A DNA stretch of 64,000 nucleotides, from contig NZ_VLKF01000001.1 of the NCBI RefSeq assembly GCF_007994135.1, forward strand, positions 3,968,001 through 4,032,000, given 5' to 3'. Positions 289 to 64,000 of this stretch are shown here, piece after piece. The stretch comes from Modestobacter roseus. Lineage in GTDB: Bacteria; Actinomycetota; Actinomycetes; Mycobacteriales; Geodermatophilaceae. Numbering within the stretch: position 1 is the first letter of the stretch; every line of letters begins with the position of its first letter. A model generated the notes under the pieces. The model was not told the DNA's origin. It saw only the letters and a list, made by a program, of their open reading frames with translations, and ran no database searches. The position numbers were made by a program, and so were the translations under genes.

Positions 289-1818
289 GTGCGCGCCCCA
301 CGACTCCTGTTCCTCGGCACCGCCGGTGCGCTGGCGCTGACCGCCTGCTCCGGCGGGGAGAGCGTCGACACCGGCAACGGCGGTGGCAGCTCCGGCGGCG
401 ACAACACGCTCGTCGCCGCGGTGAGCGCCCAGCCCGACCAGTTCGACCCGCACGTGACCAGCGCCTACCCGAGCTTCCAGGTGCTGGAGAACGTCTACGA
501 CACCCTCGTGGTCCCCAACCCCGAGGACCTCACGATGGAGCCCAGCCTCGCCACCGACTGGGAGACCAGCGACGACGGGCTGACCTGGACGTTCACCCTG
601 CGGGACGACGTCACCTTCCACGACGGCAGCGAGTTCGACGCCGCCGACGTCGTCTACTCCTACGACCGGATCATCGACGAGGAGCTGAACAACGCCTACC
701 GGTTCGCCAACGTCGAGTCGGTGACCGCGGTCGACCCGACCACGGTCGAGATCCAGGTGAGCCAGCCGACGCCGAACCTGCCGGCGCTGATCGGCGGCTT
801 CAAGGGGATGGCGATCCTCCCCGAGGGTGCGGCCGAGGAGTACGACCTGACCACCGAGGCGGTGGGCACCGGGCCGTTCACGCTGGAGAGCTCCGACGCC
901 GGCAGCACCGAGCTGGCCGCCTACGAGGACTACTGGGGTGGCGCGCCGAGCGTCGACGGCGTCGAGTTCCGCTACATCACCGAGCCCGCCGCCGCGCTGA
1001 CCGCGCTGGAGAACGGCGAGGTGCAGTGGACCGACAACGTCCCGCCGCAGCAGATCGAGTCGCTGGAGGGCAACGACCAGGTCGAGCTGGCCACCACCCC
1101 GAGCGTCGACTACTGGTACATGTCGATGAACTACGCCCGGGAGCCGTTCGGCAACCCGGCGGTGCGCCAGGCGATCGCCACCGCCATCGACCGCGGCGCG
1201 GTCACCGAGGCGGCCCGGTTCGGCGCCGCCGAGCCGAACCAGACGGCGATCCCCGAGGACAGCTTCTTCTACTCCGACTACGCCCCCTACGACGCCGACC
1301 CGGCGGCCGCGGAGCAGCTGCTCCAGCAGGCCGGCGTGCAGACGCCCATCTCGATGGGCCTGATGGTCACCGACGAGTTCCCGGAGACGGTCACCGCCGC
1401 CCAGGTGATCGCCAGCCAGCTGGAGCCGATCGGGATCGACGTGGACGTGCAGACCGTCGACTTCGCCACCTGGCTGGACCGCCAGTCGCAGGGTGACTTC
1501 GACGCCTTCCTGCTGGGCTGGCTGGGCAACATCGACCCGTTCGACTACTACCACGCCCAGCACATCACCGACGGCTCCAGCAACTACCAGGGCTACAGCA
1601 ACCCCGAGGTCGACCGGCTGCTGACCGCGGCGGCCAGCGAGACCGACCAGGACGCCCGCAAGGACCTCTACGACCAGGCCGCGCAGCTGATCGTCGACGA
1701 CGCCTCCTACGTGTACCTCTACAACCCCGACGTCGTGCAGGCGTGGGCTCCGGGGCTGTCGGGCTACACGATCCGGCCGGACAAGGCGATCAACTTCGAG
1801 GACGTGGAGCTGCCCTGA
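289..1818 (+). CDS. Peptide-type ABC transporter substrate-binding lipoprotein (SBP family 5)
   Basis: A 509-residue extracytoplasmic binding protein of the oligopeptide/dipeptide/nickel class, the usual length for the family. It starts at GTG 289 after a purine-rich GGAGGC. The N-terminus is a lipoprotein signal with lipobox LTAC at about residues 17-20, so it should be lipidated and tethered outside the membrane. It is followed by a Gly/Ser linker and the family segments AQPDQFDPH, LATDWETSDDGLTWTFTLRDDVTFHDG and a late FLLGWLGNIDPFDYYH region. Four transporter genes follow with 4-base overlaps, forming a complete importer. Ligand specificity (peptides, nickel, glycosides) cannot be read from sequence alone. 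Confidence 0.93.
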   Translation: MRAPRLLFLGTAGALALTACSGGESVDTGNGGGSSGGDNTLVAAVSAQPDQFDPHVTSAYPSFQVLENVYDTLVVPNPEDLTMEPSLATDWETSDDGLTWTFTLRDDVTFHDGSEFDAADVVYSYDRIIDEELNNAYRFANVESVTAVDPTTVEIQVSQPTPNLPALIGGFKGMAILPEGAAEEYDLTTEAVGTGPFTLESSDAGSTELAAYEDYWGGAPSVDGVEFRYITEPAAALTALENGEVQWTDNVPPQQIESLEGNDQVELATTPSVDYWYMSMNYAREPFGNPAVRQAIATAIDRGAVTEAARFGAAEPNQTAIPEDSFFYSDYAPYDADPAAAEQLLQQAGVQTPISMGLMVTDEFPETVTAAQVIASQLEPIGIDVDVQTVDFATWLDRQSQGDFDAFLLGWLGNIDPFDYYHAQHITDGSSNYQGYSNPEVDRLLTAAASETDQDARKDLYDQAAQLIVDDASYVYLYNPDVVQAWAPGLSGYTIRPDKAINFEDVELP

Positions 1819-44066: not shown

Positions 44067-44957
44067 GTGAGCGCACGCGAGGACGTCTCGGAGATCTTCG
44101 ACCCCACGGCGTGGCAGGTGGTCCCCGGCTTCGAGGGCCTGACCGACCTCACCTACCACCGGGCCGTCGACGCCGGCGTCGTCCGGGTGGCCTTCGACCG
44201 CCCCGAGGTGCGCAACGCCTTCCGGCCGGAGACGGTCGACCAGCTGCTCGCCGTGCTCGAGCACGCCCGGCTGGCCCGCGACGTCGGCTGCGTGCTGCTC
44301 ACCGGCAACGGCCCGAGCCCCAAGGACGGCGGCTGGGCGTTCTGCTCCGGTGGCGACCAGCGGGTGCGCGGCCGGTACGGGTACGAGTCCGCCGCGGGGG
44401 CGAGCGGCCGGCTGCACGTCCTGGAGGTGCAGCGGCTGATCCGGTTCATGCCCAAGGTCGTCGTCTGCGTGGTGCCCGGCTGGGCGGCCGGCGGCGGGCA
44501 CAGCCTGCACGTCGTCGCCGACCTCACGCTCGCCAGTGCCGAGCACGCCCGGTTCAAGCAGACCGACGCCGACGTCGGCAGCTTCGACGGGGGCTTCGGC
44601 TCGGCCTACCTCGCGCGCCAGGTGGGGCAGAAGTTCGCCCGGGAGATCTTCTTCCTGGGTGACGAGTACTCCGCCGCCGACGCGCACGGCATGGGCATGG
44701 TCAACCGGGTGGTGCCGCACGCCGAGCTGGAGGCCACCGCGCTGGACTGGGGGCGGCGGATCGTCGCCAAGAGCCCCACGGCCCAGCGGATGCTGAAGTA
44801 CTCGTTCAACCTGATCGACGACGGGCTGGTCGGTCAGCAGCTGTTCGCCGGGGAGACCACCCGGCTGGCCTACATGGCCGAGGAGGCCGTCGAGGGGCGC
44901 GACGCGTTCCTGGAGAAGCGCGATCCGGACTTCAGCCAGTTCCCCTGGCACGTGTAG
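44067..44957 (+). CDS. menB: 1,4-dihydroxy-2-naphthoyl-CoA synthase
   Basis: A 296-residue crotonase-fold enzyme of menaquinone synthesis: it cyclises o-succinylbenzoyl-CoA to 1,4-dihydroxy-2-naphthoyl-CoA. MenB signatures are VRVAFDRPEVRNAFRPETV, AFCSGGDQRVRG (oxyanion and bicarbonate loop), PGWAAGGGHSLHVVADLTLAS, QTDADVGSFDGGFGSAYLARQVGQK and a C-terminal KRDPDFSQFPWHV. Start is GTG 44067. The stop is TAG (44955-44957), worth noting because TAG is inferred to encode selenocysteine in fdhA in the same genome. Confidence 0.95.
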   Translation: MSAREDVSEIFDPTAWQVVPGFEGLTDLTYHRAVDAGVVRVAFDRPEVRNAFRPETVDQLLAVLEHARLARDVGCVLLTGNGPSPKDGGWAFCSGGDQRVRGRYGYESAAGASGRLHVLEVQRLIRFMPKVVVCVVPGWAAGGGHSLHVVADLTLASAEHARFKQTDADVGSFDGGFGSAYLARQVGQKFAREIFFLGDEYSAADAHGMGMVNRVVPHAELEATALDWGRRIVAKSPTAQRMLKYSFNLIDDGLVGQQLFAGETTRLAYMAEEAVEGRDAFLEKRDPDFSQFPWHV

Positions 44958-47403: not shown

Positions 47404-47480
47404 GCCGACCGATCGTGCCCCACGGTGGTGCGGAACGCGGAGCGTGGGTGAGATGGGGCGCGAATGGGCAGGCCCCGGGC

Positions 47481-48146
47481 ATGCCTGAACCAACGATCGC
47501 CGTCCTGGACGTCGACGGGACCCTCGTCGACTCGAACTACCAGCACGCCCTCGCCTGGTACCGGGCGTTGCGCGCCCAGGGTGAGGTCTACCCGGTGTGG
47601 CGGCTGCACCGGCTGATCGGGATGGGCGGGGACCAGCTGGTGACCGCGCTCGGCGGGGAGGAGCTGGAGCGCCGCGTCGGCGACGCGGCCCGGGACCGCC
47701 AGAGCGAGGAGGTCGACGGGGTGATCGACGAGATGGCGCCGCTGCCCGGGGCCCGCGACCTGCTGGTGTCGATCAAGGAGCGGGGCCACCGGCTGGTGCT
47801 CGCCAGCTCCGGCAAGCAGCGCCACGTGGACGCCTTCCTGGACCTGCTGGACGCCCGGGACCTCGCCGACGACTGGACCTCCAGCTCCGACGTCGAGAAC
47901 TCCAAGCCCGCGCCGGACCTGCTCCAGGTGGCGCTGCAGAAGATCGGCGCCGACCCCGGCGCGTCGGCGGTGATGGTCGGCGACTCGGTGTGGGACGTCG
48001 AGGCGGCGAAGCAGGCGGGGATGCCGGCGATCGTGGTCCGCTCCGGCGGCTTCGGGGACGACGAGCTGCGGGACGCCGGCGCGGTCGGGATCTACGACAC
48101 CCCCGGCGACCTCGCCGCGGCCCTGGACGACACCCCGCTCGCCTAG
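47481..48146 (+). CDS. HAD superfamily phosphatase
   Basis: A 221-residue HAD hydrolase of the phosphoglycolate-phosphatase/beta-phosphoglucomutase type. Motif I is LDVDGTLVDSN (nucleophile Asp), motif II is LASSGK, motif III Lys is in NSKPAPD, and motif IV is GDSVWDVEAA. A helical cap lies between motifs I and II. The substrate is unknown. ATG 47481 was chosen over the upstream in-frame start because the fold begins there. The stop is TAG 48144-48146, which overlaps the first of four 14-bp tandem repeats. Confidence 0.9.
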   Translation: MPEPTIAVLDVDGTLVDSNYQHALAWYRALRAQGEVYPVWRLHRLIGMGGDQLVTALGGEELERRVGDAARDRQSEEVDGVIDEMAPLPGARDLLVSIKERGHRLVLASSGKQRHVDAFLDLLDARDLADDWTSSSDVENSKPAPDLLQVALQKIGADPGASAVMVGDSVWDVEAAKQAGMPAIVVRSGGFGDDELRDAGAVGIYDTPGDLAAALDDTPLA

Positions 48147-52188: not shown

Positions 52189-53030
52189 GGCGGTGTCCCC
52201 GCGGGCAGCAGCACGGGCGACCCGGGCTCGGTCACCGCCACGGCGGTGGCCGAGCCGGCCGCGGCGACCGCGGCGGCGAACCGCATCGGCGGCTCGGTGA
52301 GCAGTGCGCGCATCCGGGCCCGCCACGGGCTGGGCAGCCGGGTGAGGCCGGCGACGGCGAGCGTGCCCCAGTGCACCGGGACGGCGACCCGCGGGCGCAG
52401 CAGCCGCACCGCTTCCGCGGCGCGCGGCGGGTCCAGGTGGCCGGGCCCGAGCGTGGGGCCCCAGCCCCAGACCGGCAGGGCGGCGACGTCGATGCCCTCG
52501 GCGCCGAGGTCGGTCATGCCCGGGAACAGGTCGGTGTCGCCGGCGGCGTAGACCGTCGTCCCGGCGCCCTGCAGCAGGTGGCCGACGGCGGGGGCGTGCG
52601 GGCCGGAGGTGAGCCGCGGGCCCCAGCGGTGCCCGGCGTGCCGGGCCTCGGTGGCGGTGACGGTCAGCCCGCCGTCGGTGAGGCTCTGCCCGGGGGCGAG
52701 CTCCTCGACGGCGGTGAACCGGTGGGCGCGCAGCCACGACCCGGCGCCGCGGGGCACCACCACCGGGGTCGACCGGCCCAGCCGGCGCAGCGAGGGCAGG
52801 TGCAGGTGGTCGTTGTGCAGGTGGGAGACGACGACCAGGTCGACGCCGGCCCAGCTCTCCGGCGGCAGCGGCGGGGCGACCCGGCGCAGCGGTCCGAGGC
52901 CGGCGGTCAGCAGCGGGTCGGTGAGCACGGTCCGCCCGGCCAGCTCCACCCGCACGGTGGAGTGGCCCAGGTAATGCAGGGACAGCGCGGTCACCGGGCC
53001 AGTATCGGCGTGACGGGGCGGGGTGGGCAT
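52185..53030 (-). CDS. Metallo-beta-lactamase-fold hydrolase (UlaG/RomA-like)
   Basis: A 281-residue MBL-fold enzyme: HYLGHSTVRVELAGRTVLTDP, the metal motif VVSHLHNDHLHLPSL (HxHxDH form), a later YAAGDTDLF and PVHWGT. The layout is that of the beta-lactamase-like UlaG/RomA/NAPE-PLD group, often lipid or lactone hydrolases. Start ATG 53030 shares a base with the upstream stop (TGATG) and has GGAAG upstream; GTG 52994 is an in-frame alternative nearer the start of homology. In an operon with DedA and an alkaline-phosphatase-like protein, a lipid phosphodiesterase role is conceivable. Confidence 0.88.
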   Translation of the reverse strand: MPTPPRHADTGPVTALSLHYLGHSTVRVELAGRTVLTDPLLTAGLGPLRRVAPPLPPESWAGVDLVVVSHLHNDHLHLPSLRRLGRSTPVVVPRGAGSWLRAHRFTAVEELAPGQSLTDGGLTVTATEARHAGHRWGPRLTSGPHAPAVGHLLQGAGTTVYAAGDTDLFPGMTDLGAEGIDVAALPVWGWGPTLGPGHLDPPRAAEAVRLLRPRVAVPVHWGTLAVAGLTRLPSPWRARMRALLTEPPMRFAAAVAAAGSATAVAVTEPGSPVLLPAGTPP

Positions 53031-55639
53031 CACACTTCCGCGCGTGGACGAGGACCGCGCAGTTCCGGTGCCACCACGGCCGAGGCGGGGTGACGCAGCA
53101 GCGCCGCGAGCTCCGGCAGGGTGAGGCCGCTGGGCAGCACGGGACCGGTCACCGCCATCCGGCAGTGCTCGCGGATGGCCTGGTAGAGCGCCGGGCTGCT
53201 CACGCCGCCGGCCACGGTGTAGACGTCGAAGGCGGCCGCGCTGGACTCGATCGCGGTGAGCACCTTCATCGTCCGCTCGTCGTCGCCCGGGGCGGCCAGC
53301 CCGCGCACGTCCACCCAGACCGTGTCCAGCGGCACCCGGGCCAGCTGCGACCAGAGGGTGGAGCCCATGCCGAACTCGGTCAGGCACAGGTGGACCCCGG
53401 CGGCGCGCACCACGTGCAGGGCGGGGACCAGACCGGCCGAGGAGGTCTGCAGCACCTCCTCGTCGAAGGCCAGGACCAGCTGCCGCGGGGCCATGCCGGC
53501 CCCGGCGAGCGCCGCGGTGACCTCACCGGCCAGGGTGTCGGCCTCCACCTGGCCGGCCGGCAGGTCGAACCCGACCTGCAGCTCGCCCTCCAGGCCCGCC
53601 ACCTCCGCGCACGCCTGGCGCAGCAGCCACTGCTGCAGGTCGCCGTTGCGGCCCTGCCGTTCGGCGGCGGCCCACAGCTCTGCCGCGGGCAGCGTGCCCA
53701 GCCCCGGGTGCACCCAGACCGGCGACGCGTGGACGCCGGTGAGGCCCCCGGTGTCGCTGGTGGCGACGACGTCGTAGCGCAGCTGGACCTCACCGGCGGC
53801 CAGCGCGGCGGCGACGTCGCGGCCGGCCGCGGCCTGGGCGACCCGGTCGGTGTCGTGCACGCGCCAGCAGCCCTTGCCGGCCTGCTTGGCGGCGCGCAGT
53901 GCGCCGTCGGCCTCGCGGAAGGCGAGCTGGCCGCCGCCGGGGAGCACCCGGGACAGCCCGACGCTGGCGCCGACGACGAAGGTCTGCTCCCCGATCCGGT
54001 AGGGGTGGCCGAGGACCTCGACGATCCGCTGCGCGGCCTCGGCCGCGGCGGCCTCCGCGCCGGTGACCAGGACGGCGAACTCGTCCCCGCCGAGCCGGGC
54101 GACCAGGTCGTCGGCGCGCACCAGGCCGTCCAGCCGCCGGGCGACCTCGATCAGCAGCTGGTCGCCGGCCTCGTGGCCGGCGGCGTCGTTGACCGCCTTG
54201 AACCCGTCGAGGTCGAGCACCAGCAGGCAGCGGTCCCCGGTGGTGGTCGGCCGGGCCATCTCCTGGAAGAGCAGGGCGCGGTTGGGCAGCCGGGTCAGGT
54301 GGTCGGTGAAGGCCATCCGCTCGAGCTCGCGCTCCCGGCGCCGGCGGGTGGTCACGTCGCGCAGGTGCAGCACCCGCCGTCCGCTGCGGGGCCGTTCGTG
54401 GTGGGTGACCTCCAGGTCGCGGGGTTCGCCGGCGGCCGACGGCACCCGCAGGTGCAGCGCCGGGGTGACCTCGCCGGCCGCGGTGGTGAGCTCGCGGGCC
54501 ACGCGGGCCCGGTCCTCCTCGTGCAGCAGGTCCAGCAGCAGCGGGTGCGGGACGCCGTCGGGGACGCCGAGCAGCGTGCGGGCCGCCGGGGAGGTGAACT
54601 CCAGGCGCAGGTCGGCGCCGACGATCGCGACGCCGTCGGAGCTGGCCTCCACCAGCCCGCGGAAGTCCTCCTCGCTGCGCAGCAGGTCCTGGGCCATCCG
54701 ACCGCTCTCCCGGATGCGCAGCCCGGTCCGCACCAGCAGCAGCAGGATGAGACCGGCGGTGCAGGTGACCTCGCCGGTGCCGATCGGCAGATCCAGGAAG
54801 ACGGCGAGCAGCAGGGTCACCGGTACCCCCACCAGGGCGAGGACGTCGATCGCCACGCCTGCGGCGTTCACCCGGGGCACCGGCTCGCCGCTCGCGGTGG
54901 CACCGGTCGGAGCCAGGGCCACCGCGCGCAGGCCGGTGGCCAGGGCCAGCAGCACGGCGACGTCGGAGACGGCGACCAGCACGTCGAGGGGGGCGAGGAA
55001 GTGTGCGGCGACCAGCGACGAGGCCAGCCCGAGCAGCGCGGTCATCTGGATGATCGCGGTCGCCGACCGGTGCACGGCCTCGGAGGAGACCGTGCACAGC
55101 GCCCCCACCGCACCGAGGACGACGGCGGGGTAGAGGCCGTAGACCAGCACCACCGGCTGCAGCTGCGGCGCGAGGGCGCCGGGGGCGAGCGCGGGGGAGA
55201 GCACCAGCACGTCGGCGACGATCACCAGGGCGACGGTGACCATCAGCCCGTCGATCACCAGCATCGGCCACCGCGTGCCGCGCACCCGGCCGCCGATCAG
55301 CGCGGCGCTGACCAGCGGGCCGAGCGCGGCCAGCAGCATGAACGCGTCGGCCAGCCGCAGCCCCTCCGGCGAGCCGCCGTTGCCGGCCGCCGCCAGCACG
55401 CTGGCGGCCGAGTAGAGCAGGGCGCTGGCCCCGAGCACCCGCCAGGGCAGCCGGTCCCGGCGGTGCATCGTCCGGGTGAGGCGGGCGCAGTGCCAGGCCG
55501 CCCAGCTGCCGAAGAGGGCGAGGACCACGTCGTCCCACTGGGGCAGGGCACCAGCGGGGCTGAAGGGCAGGGCGACGGCCAGGCCGGCGAGGGTGAGCAG
55601 CACGGGCAGCCGGAGTCGTGGCCCGCGGGGCCCGGTCAC
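53030..55639 (-). CDS. Diguanylate cyclase with degenerate EAL domain
   Basis: An 869-residue membrane protein: about nine N-terminal helices (1-300), a PAS domain (about 320-430), a GGDEF domain (about 440-590) and a C-terminal EAL-fold domain. The GGDEF site is intact (RLGGDEFAVL), and an RxxD product-inhibition site (RADD) is correctly spaced five residues upstream. The EAL domain is decayed: the usual EALLRW is HASPVW, the usual DDFGTGYSSL is TEFGMGSTLW, and the catalytic Lys segment is DTVWVDVRGL. So it should make, not break, c-di-GMP. GTG 55639 overlaps the stop of the phosphodiesterase gene (GTGA). Confidence 0.9.
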   Translation of the reverse strand: MTGPRGPRLRLPVLLTLAGLAVALPFSPAGALPQWDDVVLALFGSWAAWHCARLTRTMHRRDRLPWRVLGASALLYSAASVLAAAGNGGSPEGLRLADAFMLLAALGPLVSAALIGGRVRGTRWPMLVIDGLMVTVALVIVADVLVLSPALAPGALAPQLQPVVLVYGLYPAVVLGAVGALCTVSSEAVHRSATAIIQMTALLGLASSLVAAHFLAPLDVLVAVSDVAVLLALATGLRAVALAPTGATASGEPVPRVNAAGVAIDVLALVGVPVTLLLAVFLDLPIGTGEVTCTAGLILLLLVRTGLRIRESGRMAQDLLRSEEDFRGLVEASSDGVAIVGADLRLEFTSPAARTLLGVPDGVPHPLLLDLLHEEDRARVARELTTAAGEVTPALHLRVPSAAGEPRDLEVTHHERPRSGRRVLHLRDVTTRRRRERELERMAFTDHLTRLPNRALLFQEMARPTTTGDRCLLVLDLDGFKAVNDAAGHEAGDQLLIEVARRLDGLVRADDLVARLGGDEFAVLVTGAEAAAAEAAQRIVEVLGHPYRIGEQTFVVGASVGLSRVLPGGGQLAFREADGALRAAKQAGKGCWRVHDTDRVAQAAAGRDVAAALAAGEVQLRYDVVATSDTGGLTGVHASPVWVHPGLGTLPAAELWAAAERQGRNGDLQQWLLRQACAEVAGLEGELQVGFDLPAGQVEADTLAGEVTAALAGAGMAPRQLVLAFDEEVLQTSSAGLVPALHVVRAAGVHLCLTEFGMGSTLWSQLARVPLDTVWVDVRGLAAPGDDERTMKVLTAIESSAAAFDVYTVAGGVSSPALYQAIREHCRMAVTGPVLPSGLTLPELAALLRHPASAVVAPELRGPRPRAEV

Positions 55640-58296
55640 CGCCCGAGCCCGGGGTCGTCACCGGCCGGGACCGGGGCGCCCAGCGGCGGCACCGTCTCGT
55701 CGCCGGGCAGCGCACCGGTGAGCGCGGCCGCCGGCAGTGGCCGGGCGAGCAGGTAGCCCTGGATGAAGCGGTGCCCCATGTCGCGCAGCAGCTGCAGCTC
55801 GGCCGGGGTCTCCACGCCCTCGACCACCACGGCCAGGCCCAGGCTGGTGCCCAGGTGCAGCACCGACGCGCACAGCGCGCGGCGCTGCTGGTCGTGCTCG
55901 ACGTCGGCGAGGAACTGCCGGTCCATCTTCAGCACGTCGATCGGCAGGCCGACCAGGTAGGCCAGCGACGACCAGCCGGTGCCGAAGTCGTCGACCGCGA
56001 TGCGCACGCCCAGGCGGCGCAGCAGCTCCAGGTCGGCGACCACGTGGCCGTCGTCGAGGAGCACGGACTCGGTGATCTCCAGGACCAGCCGCGAGGCGGC
56101 CAGCCCGCTCTCCTCCAGCGCCGCCAGCACGTCGTCCACCAGCTCGCCGGTGCGCAGGTGCCGGGCGGAGACGTTGACGGCGACCGCGAGGTCCTCGTGC
56201 GGCAGCCCGGCGACCGTGGCGGTGGCCTGGTGCAGCACCCAGCGGCCGAGGTCGGTGATCAGCGCCGACTCCTCGGCCAGCGGCACGAACTCGGCGGGGG
56301 AGACCTCGCCGTAGACCGGGTGCCGCCAGCGCAGCAGCGCCTCCACCGAGGTCGTCCGGTGCAGCGCCAGGTCGACCACCGGCTGGTACACCAGGTGCAG
56401 CTGGCCGGCGCCGAGCGCCTGCGCCAGGTCGGCGCGGAGCGCCTCCTCGCGGTCCTGGTTCATCCGCAGCGCGTCGGAGTGCCGGCGGACCCGGCCGGGG
56501 CCGGCCGCGCGGGCACTGCGCAGCGCCAGGTCGGCCCGGCGGAGGGTCTCCCCGGCGTCGGCGTCAGCGGGCAGCCAGGTCACCCCGGCGGCGGCGGTCA
56601 GCCGCACGGTGCTGCCGCCGGTGAGCACCGGCTCGACGGCGTCCACCAGCCGTCCGGCCACCGTCTCGGCGTCGGAGATGGTGCCCTGCACGAGCACGGC
56701 GAACTCGTCGGCGTCGGCCCGGGCCAGCCAGTCGGCGCCCCGCAGGGCGCGGCTGAAGCGCGTGGTCAGCTCCCGCAGCACGTTCTGGTCGCCGCCCGGG
56801 GGCAGCCCGTCGACGCCGATGACCACCAGCGCGGCGGCCCCCGTCGCGGGGTCCCGGAGTGCCGCGGTCAGCCGCTGGGTGAGCGCCGAGCGGTTGGGCA
56901 GGCCGGTGGCCGGGTCGGTGGTGCTGAAGGCGGTGAGGTCGGCGTCGGCCGGGCGCGGGGCGGTGGCGCTGACGTCGCGGCAGTACAGCACCAGCGCGCC
57001 GACGTCGGGGTCGCCGCGCAGGTCGCGGACCTGGGCCCGGATCAGGCGCCAGCGGCCGTCCAGGTGCTGGATCCGCGCGGTGCGCGTCTTGGTGCCCGCG
57101 TCGTCGGGCTGCGCCGAGCCGAGCGCGGTGATCAGCGCGGGGGCGTCGTCGGGGTGGACGGCGTCGGCGATCGGGAGGCCCACGATGCGCTGCGGGTCCA
57201 GCCCGAGCAGGTCGGTGATGGCGGGGGAGACCCACCGCACCCGCAGCTCGTCGTCCAGGATGACGACCGGGTCCGCGCTGCCCCGCACCAGCGTTCGGAA
57301 GTACGCCTCGGAGCGGGTCAGCTCGGCGGTCAGCCGCTGCTGCGCCCGCCAGGACACCGCCTGGTGGATCATCAGCGTGCTGAGGCCGACGAGCCCCAGC
57401 ACGCTGCCGGTGATGGTCAGCGTGCCGGTCACCGGGACGCTGGCCAGCAGCAGGGCGCCGCCGACCATGGCGGTGGCGTGCGGCAGCAGCGCGCCCAGCG
57501 CCGAGCTGCTGTGCGGGGCGTCGCGGTGGTCGGTCACGAACCGGTCGGCGCGGCCGGCGGTGGTCAGCAGGCAGAGCCCGAGCACGCTGAGCGAGCAGGC
57601 CAGGTACACCAGCGGACCGGGGCCCGCCGCGACCGAGGAGAAGCCGGCAGCCACCGAGGCGCAGCACTGCGCGGCGAAGACCAGCAGGCCCACCTGCCGT
57701 CCGGTGGCCGGGCTGGCCGCCACGAGCAGCAGCGAGCAACCGGTCCCGATGGCGATGGTGAACAGCAGCGCGAACATGCTGATCGTCGACGTCGGCGACA
57801 GCAGCCCGGTGCCGGCGATGGTCAGCCGGTAGATGGTGTGCACGGTCAGCAGGTCGGCGATCACGAAGAGCACCAGGGAGGTCAGCAGCTGCGCGCGGCT
57901 GGCCCGCAGCCCGCGCAGGTCGATCAGGCGGACGACCGCGGCGACGACCAGCAGCTGCCCGGGGATGCTGCCCAGCGCCGACTGCCCCCAGGGCATGACC
58001 GCGCCGGCCAGGGCCGAGCCGGCACCGCCGAGCCCCACCGACCCCGCGTACCAGCGCCAGGCCGTGGGGTGGGCGCTGGCGGCGGCGCTGCGGGCGAGCA
58101 GCACGGTGACCCCGGCGATGACCGCGAAGTTGACGGCCACGGGAGCCAGGAACCCCACCAGCGGCCCGGCCACCCCCGTGGCGAGGGTGACGGCGAAGGC
58201 CAGCAGCAGCGCGCGGCCGAGCCGTGGCGCGGCCGGTGCGCGCCGGGTCGGGGCGGCCGCGACACGGGCCGGTGCGGCGAGCGCTCCTGAGGTCAC
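55636..58296 (-). CDS. c-di-GMP phosphodiesterase with degenerate GGDEF domain
   Basis: An 886-residue membrane protein: about nine N-terminal helices, a PAS domain (about 345-460), a GGDEF-fold domain and a C-terminal EAL domain. The GGDEF site is lost (LARADADEF replaces R.GGDEF), whereas the EAL domain looks fully active: SVEALLRWRHP, the EITES glutamate, DDFGTGWSSLAYL, LKMDRQFL and VVEGVET. It should hydrolyse c-di-GMP to pGpG. GTG 58296 was chosen because upstream in-frame sequence is non-homologous and antisense to the DUF5313 gene. It heads a five-gene chain of overlapping genes. Confidence 0.9.
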   Translation of the reverse strand: MTSGALAAPARVAAAPTRRAPAAPRLGRALLLAFAVTLATGVAGPLVGFLAPVAVNFAVIAGVTVLLARSAAASAHPTAWRWYAGSVGLGGAGSALAGAVMPWGQSALGSIPGQLLVVAAVVRLIDLRGLRASRAQLLTSLVLFVIADLLTVHTIYRLTIAGTGLLSPTSTISMFALLFTIAIGTGCSLLLVAASPATGRQVGLLVFAAQCCASVAAGFSSVAAGPGPLVYLACSLSVLGLCLLTTAGRADRFVTDHRDAPHSSSALGALLPHATAMVGGALLLASVPVTGTLTITGSVLGLVGLSTLMIHQAVSWRAQQRLTAELTRSEAYFRTLVRGSADPVVILDDELRVRWVSPAITDLLGLDPQRIVGLPIADAVHPDDAPALITALGSAQPDDAGTKTRTARIQHLDGRWRLIRAQVRDLRGDPDVGALVLYCRDVSATAPRPADADLTAFSTTDPATGLPNRSALTQRLTAALRDPATGAAALVVIGVDGLPPGGDQNVLRELTTRFSRALRGADWLARADADEFAVLVQGTISDAETVAGRLVDAVEPVLTGGSTVRLTAAAGVTWLPADADAGETLRRADLALRSARAAGPGRVRRHSDALRMNQDREEALRADLAQALGAGQLHLVYQPVVDLALHRTTSVEALLRWRHPVYGEVSPAEFVPLAEESALITDLGRWVLHQATATVAGLPHEDLAVAVNVSARHLRTGELVDDVLAALEESGLAASRLVLEITESVLLDDGHVVADLELLRRLGVRIAVDDFGTGWSSLAYLVGLPIDVLKMDRQFLADVEHDQQRRALCASVLHLGTSLGLAVVVEGVETPAELQLLRDMGHRFIQGYLLARPLPAAALTGALPGDETVPPLGAPVPAGDDPGLGR

Positions 58297-58380
58297 CCCC
58301 CGGTGTTCGGGACGGCGGGGGTGCTGCTCCAGCCCTGGCGCCGGCCGTTCACCCGTCGGGGGGAGTGGTACGAACGGGGG

Positions 58381-58824
58381 GTGCAGCCCGCGGACCCACC
58401 GGACGGCGGCCGGGTGGTGCGCCCCGGGCCGCTGCGCTGGCTGCAGTACGCCTTCGGTGGCCGGCTGCCCGCCCGCCACCGCCCCTGGGTGCTGCACGAC
58501 ACCACCACCCGGACCTGGGCGTGGCGGCACGTGGCGCGCTCACTGGTGCAGCTCGCCGTCCCGGTGGCCCTGGTGCTCCTGCTGGTGCCCGGCCCGTTCT
58601 GGATCCGCGGCATGGCCGCCCTGGGCGGGGTGGCGATGGGGCTGATCTTCTCCGTTGCCTACATGACCGAGACCACCGAGCACCGGCTGGTGCGCGCCGG
58701 CTACCCCGCCGGTACCGCGGCGGCCGCGCACGACCGGGCGGCGCAGGAGCGGCTGGCGGCGGAGTCGGTGCGCAAGCGCGAGGCCGCCGCCCGCCGCGCG
58801 GCCCGGTATCGCGGCGAGAGCTGA
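58381..58824 (+). CDS. DUF5313 family membrane protein
   Basis: A 147-residue protein with RPGPLRWLQYAFGGRLPARHRPWVLHD near the N-terminus, the signature of DUF5313, followed by two membrane helices (LVQLAVPVALVLLLVPG and ALGGVAMGLIFSVAYM) and a basic coiled-coil-like tail rich in Ala, Arg and Glu. Function is unknown. GTG 58381 is the chosen start; an in-frame codon at 58303 would add 26 unrelated residues. It is divergent from the c-di-GMP operon, sharing an 84-base intergenic region. Confidence 0.82.
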   Translation: MQPADPPDGGRVVRPGPLRWLQYAFGGRLPARHRPWVLHDTTTRTWAWRHVARSLVQLAVPVALVLLLVPGPFWIRGMAALGGVAMGLIFSVAYMTETTEHRLVRAGYPAGTAAAAHDRAAQERLAAESVRKREAAARRAARYRGES

Positions 58825-59020: not shown

Positions 59021-62000
59021 GTGAAGACGTGGCTCGATGCGTGGCCGGTGTTCCGGCAGCTGACCGGTCCTGATCCGCTGGGGCGTGGCAAGGCCGCGCG
59101 CAGCAAGGCGACCGAAGAGGTGGTCAGCCGCACGGCGACCGCGGACAAGGTGGTGCAGACGGTCTGCCCGTTCTGCGCGGTGGGCTGCGGCCAGCGGGTG
59201 TTCGTCAAGGACGAGCAGATCGTGCAGATCGAGGGCGACCCCGACTCGCCGATCAGCCGCGGCCGGCTGTGCCCCAAGGGCAGCGCGACCAAGCAGCTGG
59301 TCACCAGCCCGAGCCGGGTCACCACGGTCAAGTACCGCCGTCCGCACGGGACGGAGTGGGAGGACCTGGACCTCGACACGGCGATGGAGATGATCGCCGA
59401 CCGCGTCCTCGATGCCCGCCGCAAGGGCTGGCAGGACGAGGTCGACGGGCACAAGGTCAACCGCACGCTGGGCATCGCGAGCCTCGGCGGGGCCACGCTG
59501 GACAACGAAGAGAACTACCTGATGAAGAAGCTGTACAGCGCCATGGGCGCGGTGCAGATCGAGAACCAGGCCCGCATATAGCACTCCGCGACGGTCCCCG
59601 GTCTGGGGACCTCGTTCGGTCGTGGCGGCGCCACGAACTTCCAGCAGGACCTGGTGAACTCCGATTGCATCGTGATCGAGGGTTCGAACATGGCCGAGTG
59701 CCACCCGGTCGGCTTCCAGTGGGTCATGGAGGCCAAGGCGCGGGGCGCGAAGGTCATCCACATCGACCCGCGGTTCACCCGCACCAGCGCGCTGGCCGAC
59801 CTGCACGTGCCGCTGCGCGCGGGCACCGACATCGCGTTCCTCGGCGGGCTGATCAAGTACGTCCTGGACAACGACCTGGACTTCCGCGAGTACGTCGTCG
59901 CCTACACCAACGCGGCGGCGATCCTGCGTGAGGACTTCCAGGACACGGAGGACCTCGACGGCCTCTTCTCCGGCTTCGACCCGGAGACCGGGCAGTACGA
60001 CGAGACGACCTGGCAGTACGAGGGCGTGAACGTGCCCGCCTCGGCCGGCCAGCGCTCGCCGAGCCAGCCCGGTGGGTCCGCCTTCCGCGAGGACGGTGAC
60101 GGCGCCCGGAACGACGATGCCGCGCAGGACGGCAGCGACGACGAGACCGAGGGCGTCAAGGAGTCCGACCAGCAGCAGGGCGCCCAGGGCTCGGCCGACA
60201 TCCACGGCAAGCCGAAGCGGGACGAGACGCTGCAGCACCCGCGCTGCGTCTTCCAGGTGCTCAAGCGGCACTACGCCCGGTACACCCCGGAGATGGTGTC
60301 GGACATCTGCGGCATCGAGCCGGAGGTGTTCCTCAAGGTCGCCGAGTGGGTCACCGCGAACAGCAACCGCGACCGGACGACGGCGTGGGTGTACTCGGTG
60401 GGCTGGACGCACCACACCGTGGGCGTGCAGTACATCCGCACCGCCGGGATCCTGCAGGCGCTGCTGGGCAACATGGGCCGTCCGGGCGGCGGGATCCTGG
60501 CGCTGCGCGGGCACGCGAGCATCCAGGGGTCGACCGACATCCCGACGCTGTTCAACATCCTGCCCGGCTACATCCCGATGCCCCACGCCCAGCAGCACAC
60601 CGACCTGGACAGCTTCTGCTCCTCGAGTGACGACCGGATCGGCTTCTGGGGCAACATGCGCTCGTACACCACCAGCATGCTCAAGGCCTGGTGGGGCGAC
60701 GCGGCGACCGCGGAGAACGACTTCGCGTTCAACTACCTGCCCAAGATCACCGGCGACCACGGCACGTACACCACGGTCGCCGACATGATCGAGGGCAAGG
60801 TGCCCGGCTACTTCCTGGTCGGTGAGAACCCGGCGGTGGGCAGCGCCAACGGGCGCATGCAGCGCTTCGGGCTGGCCAACCTGGAGTGGCTGGTCGTCCG
60901 CGACCTGCAGATGATCGAGTCCGCGACGTTCTGGAAGACCGCCCCAGAGATCGAGACCGGTGAGCTGGTCACCGAGGACATCGCCACCGAGGTCTTCTTC
61001 ATGCCCGCGGCCACGCACGTGGAGAAGGAGGGCACCTTCACCCAGACGCAGCGGCTGCTGCAGTGGCGGCACAAGGCCGTCGAGCCGCCGGCCGACTGCC
61101 GCAGCGACCTGTGGTTCTACTTCCACCTGGGCCGCCGCCTCCGGGAGAAGCTGGCCGACTCCACCGACCCGCGGGACCGTCCGCTGCTGGACCTCGTGTG
61201 GGACTACCCGACGCACGGCGCGGACGACGAGCCCAGCGCCGACGCCGTCCTGCGGGAGATCAACGGCCGGGGCCCGGACGGCGAGATGCTGTCGACCTAC
61301 CTGGACATGAAGGACGACGGGTCGACCACCGGTGGCTGCTGGATCTACACCGGCGTCTACGCCGACGGGGTGAACCAGGCCGCCCGCCGCAAGCCCGGGC
61401 GGGAGCAGGACTGGGTCGCCGCCGAGTGGGGCTGGGCCTGGCCGTCGAACCGCCGGGTGCTCTACAACCGTGCCTCGGCCGACCCGGACGGCAAGCCGTG
61501 GAGCGAGCGCAAGGCATTCGTCTGGTGGGACGAGGAGGCCGGCACGTGGACCGGTCACGACGTCCCCGACTTCGAGGCGACCAAGCGCCCGGACTACGTG
61601 CCGCCGGAGGGTGCGGTGGCGCAGGCCGGCATCGGCGGTGCCGACCCGTTCGTCATGCAGGCCGACGGCAAGGCGTGGCTGTACGTGCCGGCCGGGCTGG
61701 CCGATGGTCCGATGCCGGCGCACTACGAGCCGGCCGAGTCGCCGGTGGAGAACGCGCTGTACGGGCAGCAGGCCAACCCGGGCCGGGAGGAGATCCACGC
61801 TGCGTACAACCGGGGCAACCCGCCGCGCAGCGAGGTCTACCCGTTCGCGATGATCACCTACCGGCTCACCGAGCACCACACCGCCGGTGGGATGAGCCGC
61901 ACGCTGCCCTACCTGTCCGAGCTCCAGCCGGAGTTCTTCGTCGAGGTCAGCCCCCGGCTGGCCGAGCTGCGCGGGCTGGAGAACGGCGGCTGGGCGACCC

Positions 62001-62347
62001 TGATCAGCGCCCGGACGGCGATCGAGGCCAGGGTGCTGGTCACCGAGCGGATGCGGCCGATGAAGGTCAAGGGCGGCCAGGTCGTCGAGACCATCGGCAT
62101 CCCCTACCACTGGGGTGAGCAGGGCCTGTCCACCGGCGACTCGGGCAACGACCTGTTCGGCGTGGTGATGGACCCGAACGTGCACATCCAGGAGTCGAAG
62201 GTCGCCACCTGCGACATCCAGCCCGGGCGGCGTCCGCGCGGCAAGGCGCTGGTGCAGTACGTGGAGGACCACCGGATCCGGGCGGGCGTGCAGTCGGGGC
62301 TGGTCCCCAGCGGTGGCCGGGTCCCGACCGAGGAGGGGACGAGCTGA
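59021..62347 (+). CDS. fdhA: Formate dehydrogenase alpha subunit, selenoprotein with UAG-encoded Sec
   Basis: Molybdopterin-dependent catalytic subunit oxidising formate to CO2. With the TAG read through it has 1108 residues. A 4Fe-4S site is formed by Cys49, Cys52, Cys56 and Cys84 (CPFCAVGC, LCPKG). At codon 187 (59579-59581) is TAG, in the context NQARI-*-HSATVPG; this is exactly where the family has the Mo-ligating Cys or Sec. The frame continues unbroken with full homology (TSFGRGGATNF, GSNMAECHPVGFQW), and a SECIS-like hairpin follows the TAG. An Asp/Glu/Gln-rich insertion spans about 333-400. GTG 59021 starts the gene. Without suppression it would be two fragments. fdhB follows 47 bases later. 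Sec assignment rests on context, not experiment. Confidence 0.9.
59579..59581 (+). other. In-frame TAG, predicted selenocysteine codon
   Basis: TAG at codon 187 of fdhA occupies the active-site Sec/Cys position. The preceding codon is ATA, very rare in this GC-rich genome. TAG is also used as an ordinary stop in menB and the HAD gene here, so decoding must depend on the adjacent hairpin. A tRNA-Sec with CUA anticodon is required and is not in this window. Confidence 0.85.
59593..59611 (+). promoter_or_regulatory. SECIS-like hairpin for Sec insertion
   Basis: A perfect 7-bp stem (GGTCCCC 59593-59599 with GGGGACC 59605-59611) closes the loop GGTCT. It begins 11 bases after the TAG, the same distance as in E. 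coli fdhF, whose SECIS loop also contains GGUCU. A lower extension pairs CGA with TCG around one bulged base. It should bind SelB in the mRNA. Confidence 0.85.
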
Positions 62348-62393: not shown

Positions 62394-63512
62394 GTGACCA
62401 CCGTCAGCTCGGCGAGCCCGGCGCTCACCGGCAAGGACCCGGCCAACCGGCTCTACGGCCCGTTGCCCGACGTGAGCGGGGAGGCCGGCTACGAGGAGGA
62501 CCACCCCGCGCGGGTGGGCTTCTTCACCGACACCTCGGTCTGCATCGGCTGCAAGGCCTGCGAGGTCGCCTGCAAGGAGTGGAACACGCTCCCGATGGAC
62601 GACGCGAACGGCCAGCGGGACGCGATGGGCCTGTCCGGGATGTCCTACGACAACACCGGGATGCTCGGCGCCAACTCCTGGCGGCACGTGGCCTTCGTGG
62701 AGCAGAGCCGCCCGGTCGACCTGCCGATGCCGGGCGTCGGGCTGCCGGGCGCCGGTGGCACGGGCGCGGCTGCTCCGGCGGCCGGCGGCTGCGGGAGCGG
62801 CGGGGGCTGCGGGAGCGGCTCCGGCGACCCGCACGCCACCTCGGCCGGCGGGAACGCCGACGGTGTCGGCATGGCCCAGTCCAGCGTGCTGAACGCCGAG
62901 GCGCTCAGCGAGTTCGACCCGCAGACCGGCCAGTCCGGCGACCGGGAGATCCGCTGGCTGATGTCCTCCGACGTGTGCAAGCACTGCACGCACGCCGGTT
63001 GCCTGGACGTCTGCCCGACCGGGGCGCTGTTCCGCACCGAGTTCGGCACCGTGGTCGTGCAGGGCGACATCTGCAACGGCTGCGGCTACTGCGTGCCGGC
63101 CTGCCCCTACGGCGTCATCGACAAGCGAGAGGACGACGGCCGGGTCTTCAAGTGCACGATGTGCTACGACCGCCTGACCGACGGGCTGCAGCCGGCCTGC
63201 GCCACCGCGTGCCCGACCCAGTCGATCCAGTTCGGCGACCTCGACGAGCTGCAGGCCCGGGCCGACGCCCGGCTGGCCACGCTGAAGGAGCAGGGCGTGC
63301 AGACCGCCCGGCTCTACGGGCGCGACGAGGCCGACGGCGTCGGCGGCGTGGGGGCGTTCTTCCTGCTGCTCGACGAGCCGGAGGTCTACGGCTTCCCGCC
63401 GGACCCGATCGTCACCACCCGGAACCTGCCGGCGATGTGGAAGGCGGCCGCCGCGGGGGCCGCGATGATCGTCGGCGTCGTGGCCTCGGCCTTCGTCGGG
63501 AGGAAGGGCTGA
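62394..63512 (+). CDS. fdhB: Formate dehydrogenase iron-sulfur (beta) subunit
   Basis: A 372-residue electron-transfer subunit with four cysteine clusters for 4Fe-4S centres: CIGCKACEVACKEW (about residue 50), CKHCTHAGCLDVCPTGAL, CNGCGYCVPACPYG, and CTMCYDRL...CATACPT. A Gly/Ser-rich insertion with extra cysteines, GGCGSGGGCGSGSG, lies at about 129-142. A single C-terminal membrane helix (AAAGAAMIVGVVASAFVG) anchors it. GTG 62394 follows GAGGAG. It passes electrons from FdhA to the membrane subunit and overlaps that gene by one base (TGATG). Confidence 0.93.
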   Translation: MTTVSSASPALTGKDPANRLYGPLPDVSGEAGYEEDHPARVGFFTDTSVCIGCKACEVACKEWNTLPMDDANGQRDAMGLSGMSYDNTGMLGANSWRHVAFVEQSRPVDLPMPGVGLPGAGGTGAAAPAAGGCGSGGGCGSGSGDPHATSAGGNADGVGMAQSSVLNAEALSEFDPQTGQSGDREIRWLMSSDVCKHCTHAGCLDVCPTGALFRTEFGTVVVQGDICNGCGYCVPACPYGVIDKREDDGRVFKCTMCYDRLTDGLQPACATACPTQSIQFGDLDELQARADARLATLKEQGVQTARLYGRDEADGVGGVGAFFLLLDEPEVYGFPPDPIVTTRNLPAMWKAAAAGAAMIVGVVASAFVGRKG

Positions 63513-64000
63513 TGGCCGGCGAGCCGGAGAACGAGACGACGACGGGCGCGACGCCCGGCGAGGCGCCGATGACGCCGGGCGCCGGTGGCTGGCACCGTGC
63601 CGGCGGCGAGGACCTGACCCGCCCGAAGCGGAAGCGCCGTCGCGGCGGTGGCGGCTGGGGCAGCGGCAACCGCGAGGCGGCGATGGTGCCGGACGCGGAG
63701 TTCAGCTCCTACTACGGCCGGCAGATCATCAAGTCACCGGTCTGGAAGAACCCCGAGGTCCCGATCTACTTCTTCCTCGGCGGAGCCGCGGGCACGGCGT
63801 CGGTGATCGCGGCGCTGGCCGAGTTCACCGGACGGCAGAAGCTGGCCCGCAACGCCGAGTACACCGCCGGCGTCGGTGCGCTCGCCTCGGTCGTGCTGCT
63901 CATCGACGACCTGGGCCGGCCGGAGCGGTTCCTGCACATGCTGCGGGTGTTCAAGCCGACCTCCCCGCTGTCGGTCGGGTCGTACATCCTGTCCCCGTTC
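63512..64000 (+). CDS. nrfD: NrfD-like membrane subunit of formate dehydrogenase, partial
   Basis: The gene starts at ATG 63512, sharing a base with the fdhB stop, and is cut by the window end after 163 codons. About 65 residues of charged N-terminus (Lys/Arg-rich) precede YYGRQIIKSPVWKNPEVPIYFFLGGAAGTASVIAAL and DDLGRPERFLHMLRVFKPTSPLSVGSYIL, diagnostic of NrfD/PsrC quinone-reactive membrane proteins. It should deliver electrons to menaquinone. This type of module contrasts with cytochrome-b type FdnI. Confidence 0.9.
   Translation, partial: MAGEPENETTTGATPGEAPMTPGAGGWHRAGGEDLTRPKRKRRRGGGGWGSGNREAAMVPDAEFSSYYGRQIIKSPVWKNPEVPIYFFLGGAAGTASVIAALAEFTGRQKLARNAEYTAGVGALASVVLLIDDLGRPERFLHMLRVFKPTSPLSVGSYILSPF

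Follow-up and report, generated by a model that had tools for sequence, protein, structure and literature searches.

The formate dehydrogenase gene fdhA in the window (the whole stretch of 64,000 nucleotides that was analysed) is, in all probability, a selenoprotein gene in which UAG encodes selenocysteine (Sec), read through a tRNA-Sec with the anticodon CUA, the proteins SelA, SelB and SelD and an mRNA hairpin, by a code that arose inside the family Geodermatophilaceae. The genes, the tRNA, the codon, the covariation of the hairpin and the distribution across the family were established by computation. Because the machinery sought in the rest of the genome was present, the hairpin covaries and relatives share the TAG, these results support the UAG-Sec interpretation of the first-pass annotation of this DNA.

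That annotation had described an fdhA frame interrupted only by a TAG between NQARI and HSATVPG, at the site where homologs carry Sec or Cys, with both halves intact. The frame indeed contains exactly one internal stop, codon 187, flanked by these residues, and both halves match a single curated model in the same frame (NF041513, actinobacterial formate dehydrogenase; profile positions 2-185 and 187-1065). By itself, the segment downstream of the TAG reaches 1584.7 bits against a cut-off of 1400 and thus qualifies for NF041513. Codon 187 aligns with the X in 1h0h_A (QARI-X-HSATV) and 1kqf_A (QARV-X-HGPTV), which we take to be the active-site Sec of these solved formate dehydrogenases, and other genomes of the order have TGA there. 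In the rest of the operon, described as intact in the annotation, an open frame for an Fe-S subunit, whose start codon was our choice, is followed by an NrfD-like gene. Coordinates are listed in the table. Two further features of the region were noted in passing. FdhA residues about 335-392 (window positions 60023-60196) are rich in charged residues and have no counterpart in the alignments with the two solved formate dehydrogenases. On the minus strand, two long adjacent genes at 53030-58530 have translations with GGDEF- and EAL-like motifs and presumably encode cyclic-di-GMP enzymes.

Table. Positions of the features discussed; coordinates refer to the window or to the genome that contains it.
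Feature	Reference	Position	Strand	Remarks
menB	window	44067-44957	+	ends in TAG as ordinary stop (44955-44957)
HAD-family hydrolase gene	window	47415-48146	+	ends in TAG as ordinary stop (48144-48146)
fdhA, formate dehydrogenase catalytic subunit	window	59021-62347	+	1108 codons; codon 187 is TAG (Sec reading)
ATA (Ile) codon at -1	window	59576-59578	+	
TAG at the active-site Sec position	window	59579-59581	+	alignment with 1h0h_A and 1kqf_A
Possible lower extension of the hairpin	window	59589-59614	+	three additional pairs with one bulged base; weak support
bSECIS-type hairpin	window	59593-59611	+	7-bp stem GGUCCCC/GGGGACC; loop GGUCU at 59600-59604
Fe-S subunit of formate dehydrogenase, fdhB-like	window	62394-63512	+	best model TIGR01582, below cut-off
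NrfD-like membrane subunit	window	63512-64000	+	runs past window end; weak match, E 0.00067
selD	genome	638829-639830	-	384 bits, over curated cut-off
tRNA-Sec, anticodon CTA (CUA)	genome	C1:639892-639983		RF01852, 65.6 bits, over cut-off
selA	genome	646569-647879		402 bits, over curated cut-off
selB	genome	647870-649615		278 bits, over curated cut-off

The genome that contains the window (4.5 Mb in 2 contigs, 99.83% complete) was searched for a tRNA-Sec with a CUA anticodon and for selA, selB and selD, as the first-pass annotation had proposed, and all four were found in the same region. The genes selA and selB lie approximately 6.6 kb beyond the tRNA-Sec, separated from it by genes that were named from sequence only as a LacI-type regulator and sugar-transport genes. 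Among four further matches to RF01852 in this genome, three scored below the cut-off and one above it (49.7 bits); the latter is the tRNA-Ser(TGA) of the window. The pattern for a tRNA-Sec with the anticodon UCA had no match in the window genome. ARAGORN labels the CTA tRNA as tRNA-Pyl. The host had been guessed to belong to Geodermatophilaceae, and in a comparison of 96 loci over one 18-kb region it was indeed nearest to Modestobacter records, which made up nine of the twelve best named loci (ranks 2-10), with a "Geodermatophilaceae bacterium" ranking best and Geodermatophilus at ranks 11 and 12.

The codon nevertheless retains its ordinary function in the same genome. Because menB and the HAD gene both end in TAG, as had been claimed and as we verified, UAG has two meanings here, Sec in fdhA and stop in the two other genes. 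Overall, the stops of the gene-like ORFs in the window, which were picked by composition and some of which may be wrong, were TGA in 30 of 32 cases and TAG in 2, with the fdhA fragment left out. Counts from five further genome stretches (26 gene-like ORFs, TGA 24 and TAG 2) were not used because these stretches overlap the window and contain Sec TAGs.

A SECIS-like hairpin after the TAG had been proposed from the window alone. It occupies bases +14 to +32, counting the T of TAG as 0, and we compared it over 59 fdhA sites that were chosen for their TAG, namely that of the window, 30 others of the 74 places found by pattern and 28 from the protein-search set. Over the 38 distinct fdhA sequences, 92.4% of the cells were paired; shuffles gave 86.3%, and sliding the arms against each other gave no more than 48.4%. 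Double changes occurred in 4 of 10 hairpin pairs, and between 0 and 2 of 500 shuffles were as high on the five measures used. The bases +17 and +29 pair in 59/59 sites by four different combinations (G-U 34, C-G 13, G-C 9 and U-A 3), and RNAalifold, unprompted, returned the same 7-bp stem together with a small second stem. The middle pair of the possible lower extension fails in 22 of the 38 sequences. Taken alone, the window hairpin is less distinctive: its z-score against shuffles is -1.8 to -2.0, with 8 or 9 of 200 shuffles folding as well, and the Rfam match to SECIS_3 (59576-59637) is below threshold (21.6 bits against a gathering score of 63, E 0.31). It is thus the covariation that supports the hairpin, the single-sequence fold and the Rfam score being weak. 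Formate dehydrogenase genes of the same order that use UGA for Sec (22 distinct sequences) have the same site and the same stem core at the same distance; they vary less, with 75.5% of cells paired compared to 74.0% in shuffles and a double change in 1 of 10 pairs.

The UGSC family provides the second and third TAG genes of the window genome. Two of its four members there have one TAG and two are free of stops; the TAG occupies the U position of the UGSC motif (*GSC, the asterisk denoting the TAG), where the two paralogs without a stop have Cys (CGSC). These Cys paralogs therefore serve as an internal control for what UAG stands for. Across 112 genomes of the family, 95 UGSC matches were found in 54 genomes, 72 with one TAG and 23 without a stop, and TGA or TAA occurred within none of the 95. 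Of four stop-free matches that were fetched, one (L275) has Cys (CGAC), and the motifs gave no assignment for the other three (L272-L274). The loop RGUNU at +21 to +25 is present in 59/59 fdhA sites and in 38/38 UGSC sites (the two of the window genome and 36 hand-picked among the remaining 70 TAG matches), carried by stems that differ in sequence, and no such hairpin was found in the two Cys paralogs.

The codon that precedes the Sec codon is likewise biased. It was ATA in 59/59 extracted fdhA TAG sites and ATT in 30/30 extracted TGA sites; a few ATA-TGA sites also appear among the matches listed in the draw of genomes from the order. For comparison, the Ile codons of the gene-like ORFs in the window are ATC in 400 of 404 cases and ATA in 2. 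At the UGSC sites the preceding codon is GAT in 25/38 and GAC in 13/38, and among the 1121 Asp codons of the gene-like ORFs in the window, 38 are GAT. The UGSC genes do not obey a strict rule on the base that precedes the Sec codon, U being enriched there and not obligatory, so A or U at this position is favoured and not required everywhere. Because related sequences share their history, these counts are not independent.

We determined the distribution of the system in the same 112 family genomes. The tRNA-Sec(CUA) was present in 101 of them, and in 92 of the 96 genomes with a completeness of 90% or more and a contamination of 5% or less. A TAG-containing fdhA was found in 98 of the 112, 73 by pattern and 25 more by protein search followed by sequence inspection. 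The protein search covered 40 family genomes (the 39 without the fdhA-TAG pattern and G060) and found FdhA in 28, with 35 matches, of which 32 contained one TAG and three contained none; these three begin after residue 187. One of the 32 TAG-containing matches, an fdhA copy (L207, on G081:C4), lacks the Sec region, has a TAG elsewhere and was dropped from the counts; another fdhA sequence of the same genome lies on C12. Two genomes, G098 and G099, have fdhA-TAG and lack the tRNA-Sec(CUA) pattern, at 72 and 80% completeness, respectively. Because 98/112 family genomes share the TAG at the fdhA site, its occurrence there is not due to chance. In a draw of 397 genomes from the order, which did not include the nine genomes of the genera g6, g7 and g8, the fdhA Sec site was TGN in 0 of 75 family genomes, compared to 147 of 322 others, and among the TGN matches listed all but one (TGG) were TGA.

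The tRNA-Sec(UCA) was found in eight family genomes, seven of the nine from g6, g7 and g8 and in addition G060; none of the seven had a tRNA-Sec(CUA). G060 carries, besides its tRNA-Sec(CUA), a quite different tRNA-Sec(UCA) (81.8 bits; L210, G060:C17:1-14000, positions 1173-1263, minus strand) on a contig stretch with putative transposase genes, and no UGA selenoprotein was seen there in searches for fdhA and UGSC genes.

A scan of genome contigs for tRNA-Sec(CUA)-like genes returned 96 stretches, of which 14 were run against Rfam and 82 were judged by sequence alone. Rfam assigned tRNA-Sec in eight of the 14 (L027, L029, L039, L066, L068, L097, L098 and L103), five were misfits, and L099, cut off near a contig end, gave no match. 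Nine stretches bore titles from outside the family. Three of them (L039, L066 and L029, titled Jatrophihabitans, Frankiales and Bacillus, respectively) fit tRNA-Sec with the sequence type of the family and are probably mislabelled or mixed records; L103 fits tRNA-Sec with another sequence type. The remaining five (L018, L038, L056, L081 and L088), as well as the viral L113-L116, do not fit tRNA-Sec and were rejected; several of these, from metagenome-assembled genomes (MAGs; L038, L081, L088) and viral contigs (L113, L116), carry RF00005 tRNA genes with CTCTAAA that possibly read UAG. On a Blastococcus endophyticus contig (NZ_JABGCI010000003.1), two slightly different tRNA-Sec(CUA)-like genes (L098 and L112) lie approximately 59 kb apart, the former being the one of the two that was scored by Rfam.

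Because seven of the nine g6-g8 genomes have the anticodon UCA, we place the switch inside the family. The window tRNA-Sec(CUA) is identical to the tRNA-Sec(UCA) of G070 (g6), G074 (g8), G075 (g8) and G072 (g7) at 84, 84, 82 and 80 of 93 positions, respectively, and in all four comparisons two anticodon bases and the pair that closes the anticodon stem (U-A vs C-G) are among the differences. This comparison suggests that the change from UCA to CUA most likely happened within Geodermatophilaceae. Genes that resemble selA, selB or selD, as named from their sequences, are found close to the UCA tRNA in G072, G074, G075 and G076. Because no FdhA was found at E 1e-100 in the nine g6-g8 genomes, the corresponding change from TGA to TAG in fdhA is not seen inside the family, nor was a UGA selenoprotein identified in these genera. 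We suppose that leaving UGA, the commonest stop, was favoured, and the rarity of UAG as a stop (2/32 gene-like ORFs) may have made the codon move cheap.

A second lineage was found in Coriobacteriia. The stretch L103 (also L235; JAUNNF010000009.1, Coriobacteriia MAG, G001:C6) carries a tRNA-Sec with the anticodon CTA (64.2 bits) that follows selA and selB, and selD lies nearby. The same contig contains grdB with one TAG, at ST*GTC, and a putative grdA frame with a TAG at ECFV*TSAGAMD, both at positions that we take to be Sec in relatives. TAG also ends ordinary-looking genes in L103, such as the gene preceding grdB. No clear hairpin followed the two Coriobacteriia TAGs, for which 161 and 54 of 200 shuffles, respectively, were at least as good. 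Among 138 genomes of the L103 family searched with a strict pattern, CUA was found in that of L103 alone and UCA in one other (G481). Contamination of the bin is possible for this MAG, but these genes share one contig. Because its tRNA sequence differs and its host is distant, the Coriobacteriia case is apparently an independent switch. We consider it likely that at least two independent moves of the Sec codon from UGA to UAG took place in Actinomycetota, one within Geodermatophilaceae after the split from g6-g8 and one in a Coriobacteriia lineage with grdA and grdB, and that the move in fdhA was accompanied by a fixed change of the preceding Ile codon from AUU to AUA.

Other explanations of the fdhA frame were weighed against the UAG-Sec reading. 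A single stop in an otherwise open gene is also what a pseudogene with a recent nonsense mutation, or an error in sequencing, would produce; however, the same TAG occurs at the same codon in 98/112 family genomes, together with a conserved hairpin and a matching tRNA, so both are ruled out by the relatives and their probability is close to nil. Insertion of pyrrolysine, or reading by an ordinary amber suppressor, would agree with the ARAGORN label of the CTA tRNA, but this tRNA exceeds the cut-off of the tRNA-Sec model, shares 80 to 84 of 93 positions with the tRNA-Sec(UCA) of four genomes from basal family genera and is located in the same region as selD, selA and selB, and the site is X in the two solved enzymes and, in the UGSC genes, Cys in two paralogs. 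We regard this possibility as extremely unlikely.

It is also conceivable that UAG in fdhA acts mainly as a stop and that readthrough to Sec is minor or gated by selenium. Because UAG keeps its role as a stop elsewhere in this genome, a release factor would have to compete at the fdhA codon. The part of the protein encoded after the TAG is nevertheless conserved, as its score against NF041513 indicates, and the hairpin is under constraint; we consider it very improbable that readthrough is a minor or selenium-gated event.

Under the UAG-Sec reading, the tRNA-Sec(CUA) would be charged with Ser, which SelA would convert to Sec using selenophosphate supplied by SelD. The Sec-tRNA would then be brought to the ribosome by SelB, which would also bind the hairpin whose first base lies 14 bases downstream of the U of UAG, so that SelB bound to the hairpin would cause this UAG to be read as Sec, and the protein would contain Sec. 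UAGs that presumably lack such a hairpin, such as those of menB and the HAD gene, would be read as stops by the release factor. The code itself would have arisen in the family through the anticodon change from UCA to CUA together with changes from TGA to TAG in selenoprotein genes.

The pyrrolysine system also reads UAG with a CUA tRNA; here, in contrast, the tRNA is of the tRNA-Sec type and is accompanied by selA, selB and selD. Compared to the UGA-Sec formate dehydrogenases of the same order, the family genes have TAG instead of TGA and are preceded by ATA instead of ATT. UAG-programmed selenoproteins in Geodermatophilus and Blastococcus were reportedly shown by 75Se or mass spectrometry by Mukai et al. 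in 2016, in a paper that is said to have surveyed genomes and metagenomes. The first-pass annotation had referred to reports of UAG-Sec in these two genera, which fits what PMC5330540 describes: three Geodermatophilaceae genomes with tRNA-Sec(CUA) and Sec-TAG in formate dehydrogenases and UGSC-motif proteins, with AhpC as a further Sec-TAG protein in Blastococcus saxobsidens DD2 and credit given to an earlier 2016 paper. UAG-Sec in Geodermatophilaceae is thus already published, and the window fdhA, with the same type of tRNA and of genes in the same family, is a further case. It differs from the published account in its Modestobacter-like host, the family-wide counts, the split between g6-g8 (UCA) and the rest (CUA), the ATA at -1 and the covariation of the hairpin. 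According to PMC10778597, some species recode further stop codons, and also sense codons, to Sec, and term counts in PMC10778597, PMC7609411, PMC13188914 and PMC8318568 returned no mention of Geodermatophilaceae. Among the literature matches listed, none described UAG-Sec in Coriobacteriia or Modestobacter, an absence of little weight given that the 2016 genome and metagenome survey lay outside the comparison.

What is new here is the spread of the code through the family, the place of its origin and a second, apparently unrelated case, all traced by computation. If AUU indeed changed to AUA alongside the move in fdhA, the base before the codon would be part of the recoding signal. Usual annotation rules break UAG-Sec genes, and the labelling of the CUA tRNA-Sec as tRNA-Pyl adds to this. 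In Geodermatophilaceae, the change of a Sec codon can be traced stepwise, with sister genera that keep the old anticodon, numerous genomes that have the new one, a single genome that carries both, and Cys paralogs as controls, and codon reassignment thereby becomes testable in bacteria of the soil, many of them cultured strains.
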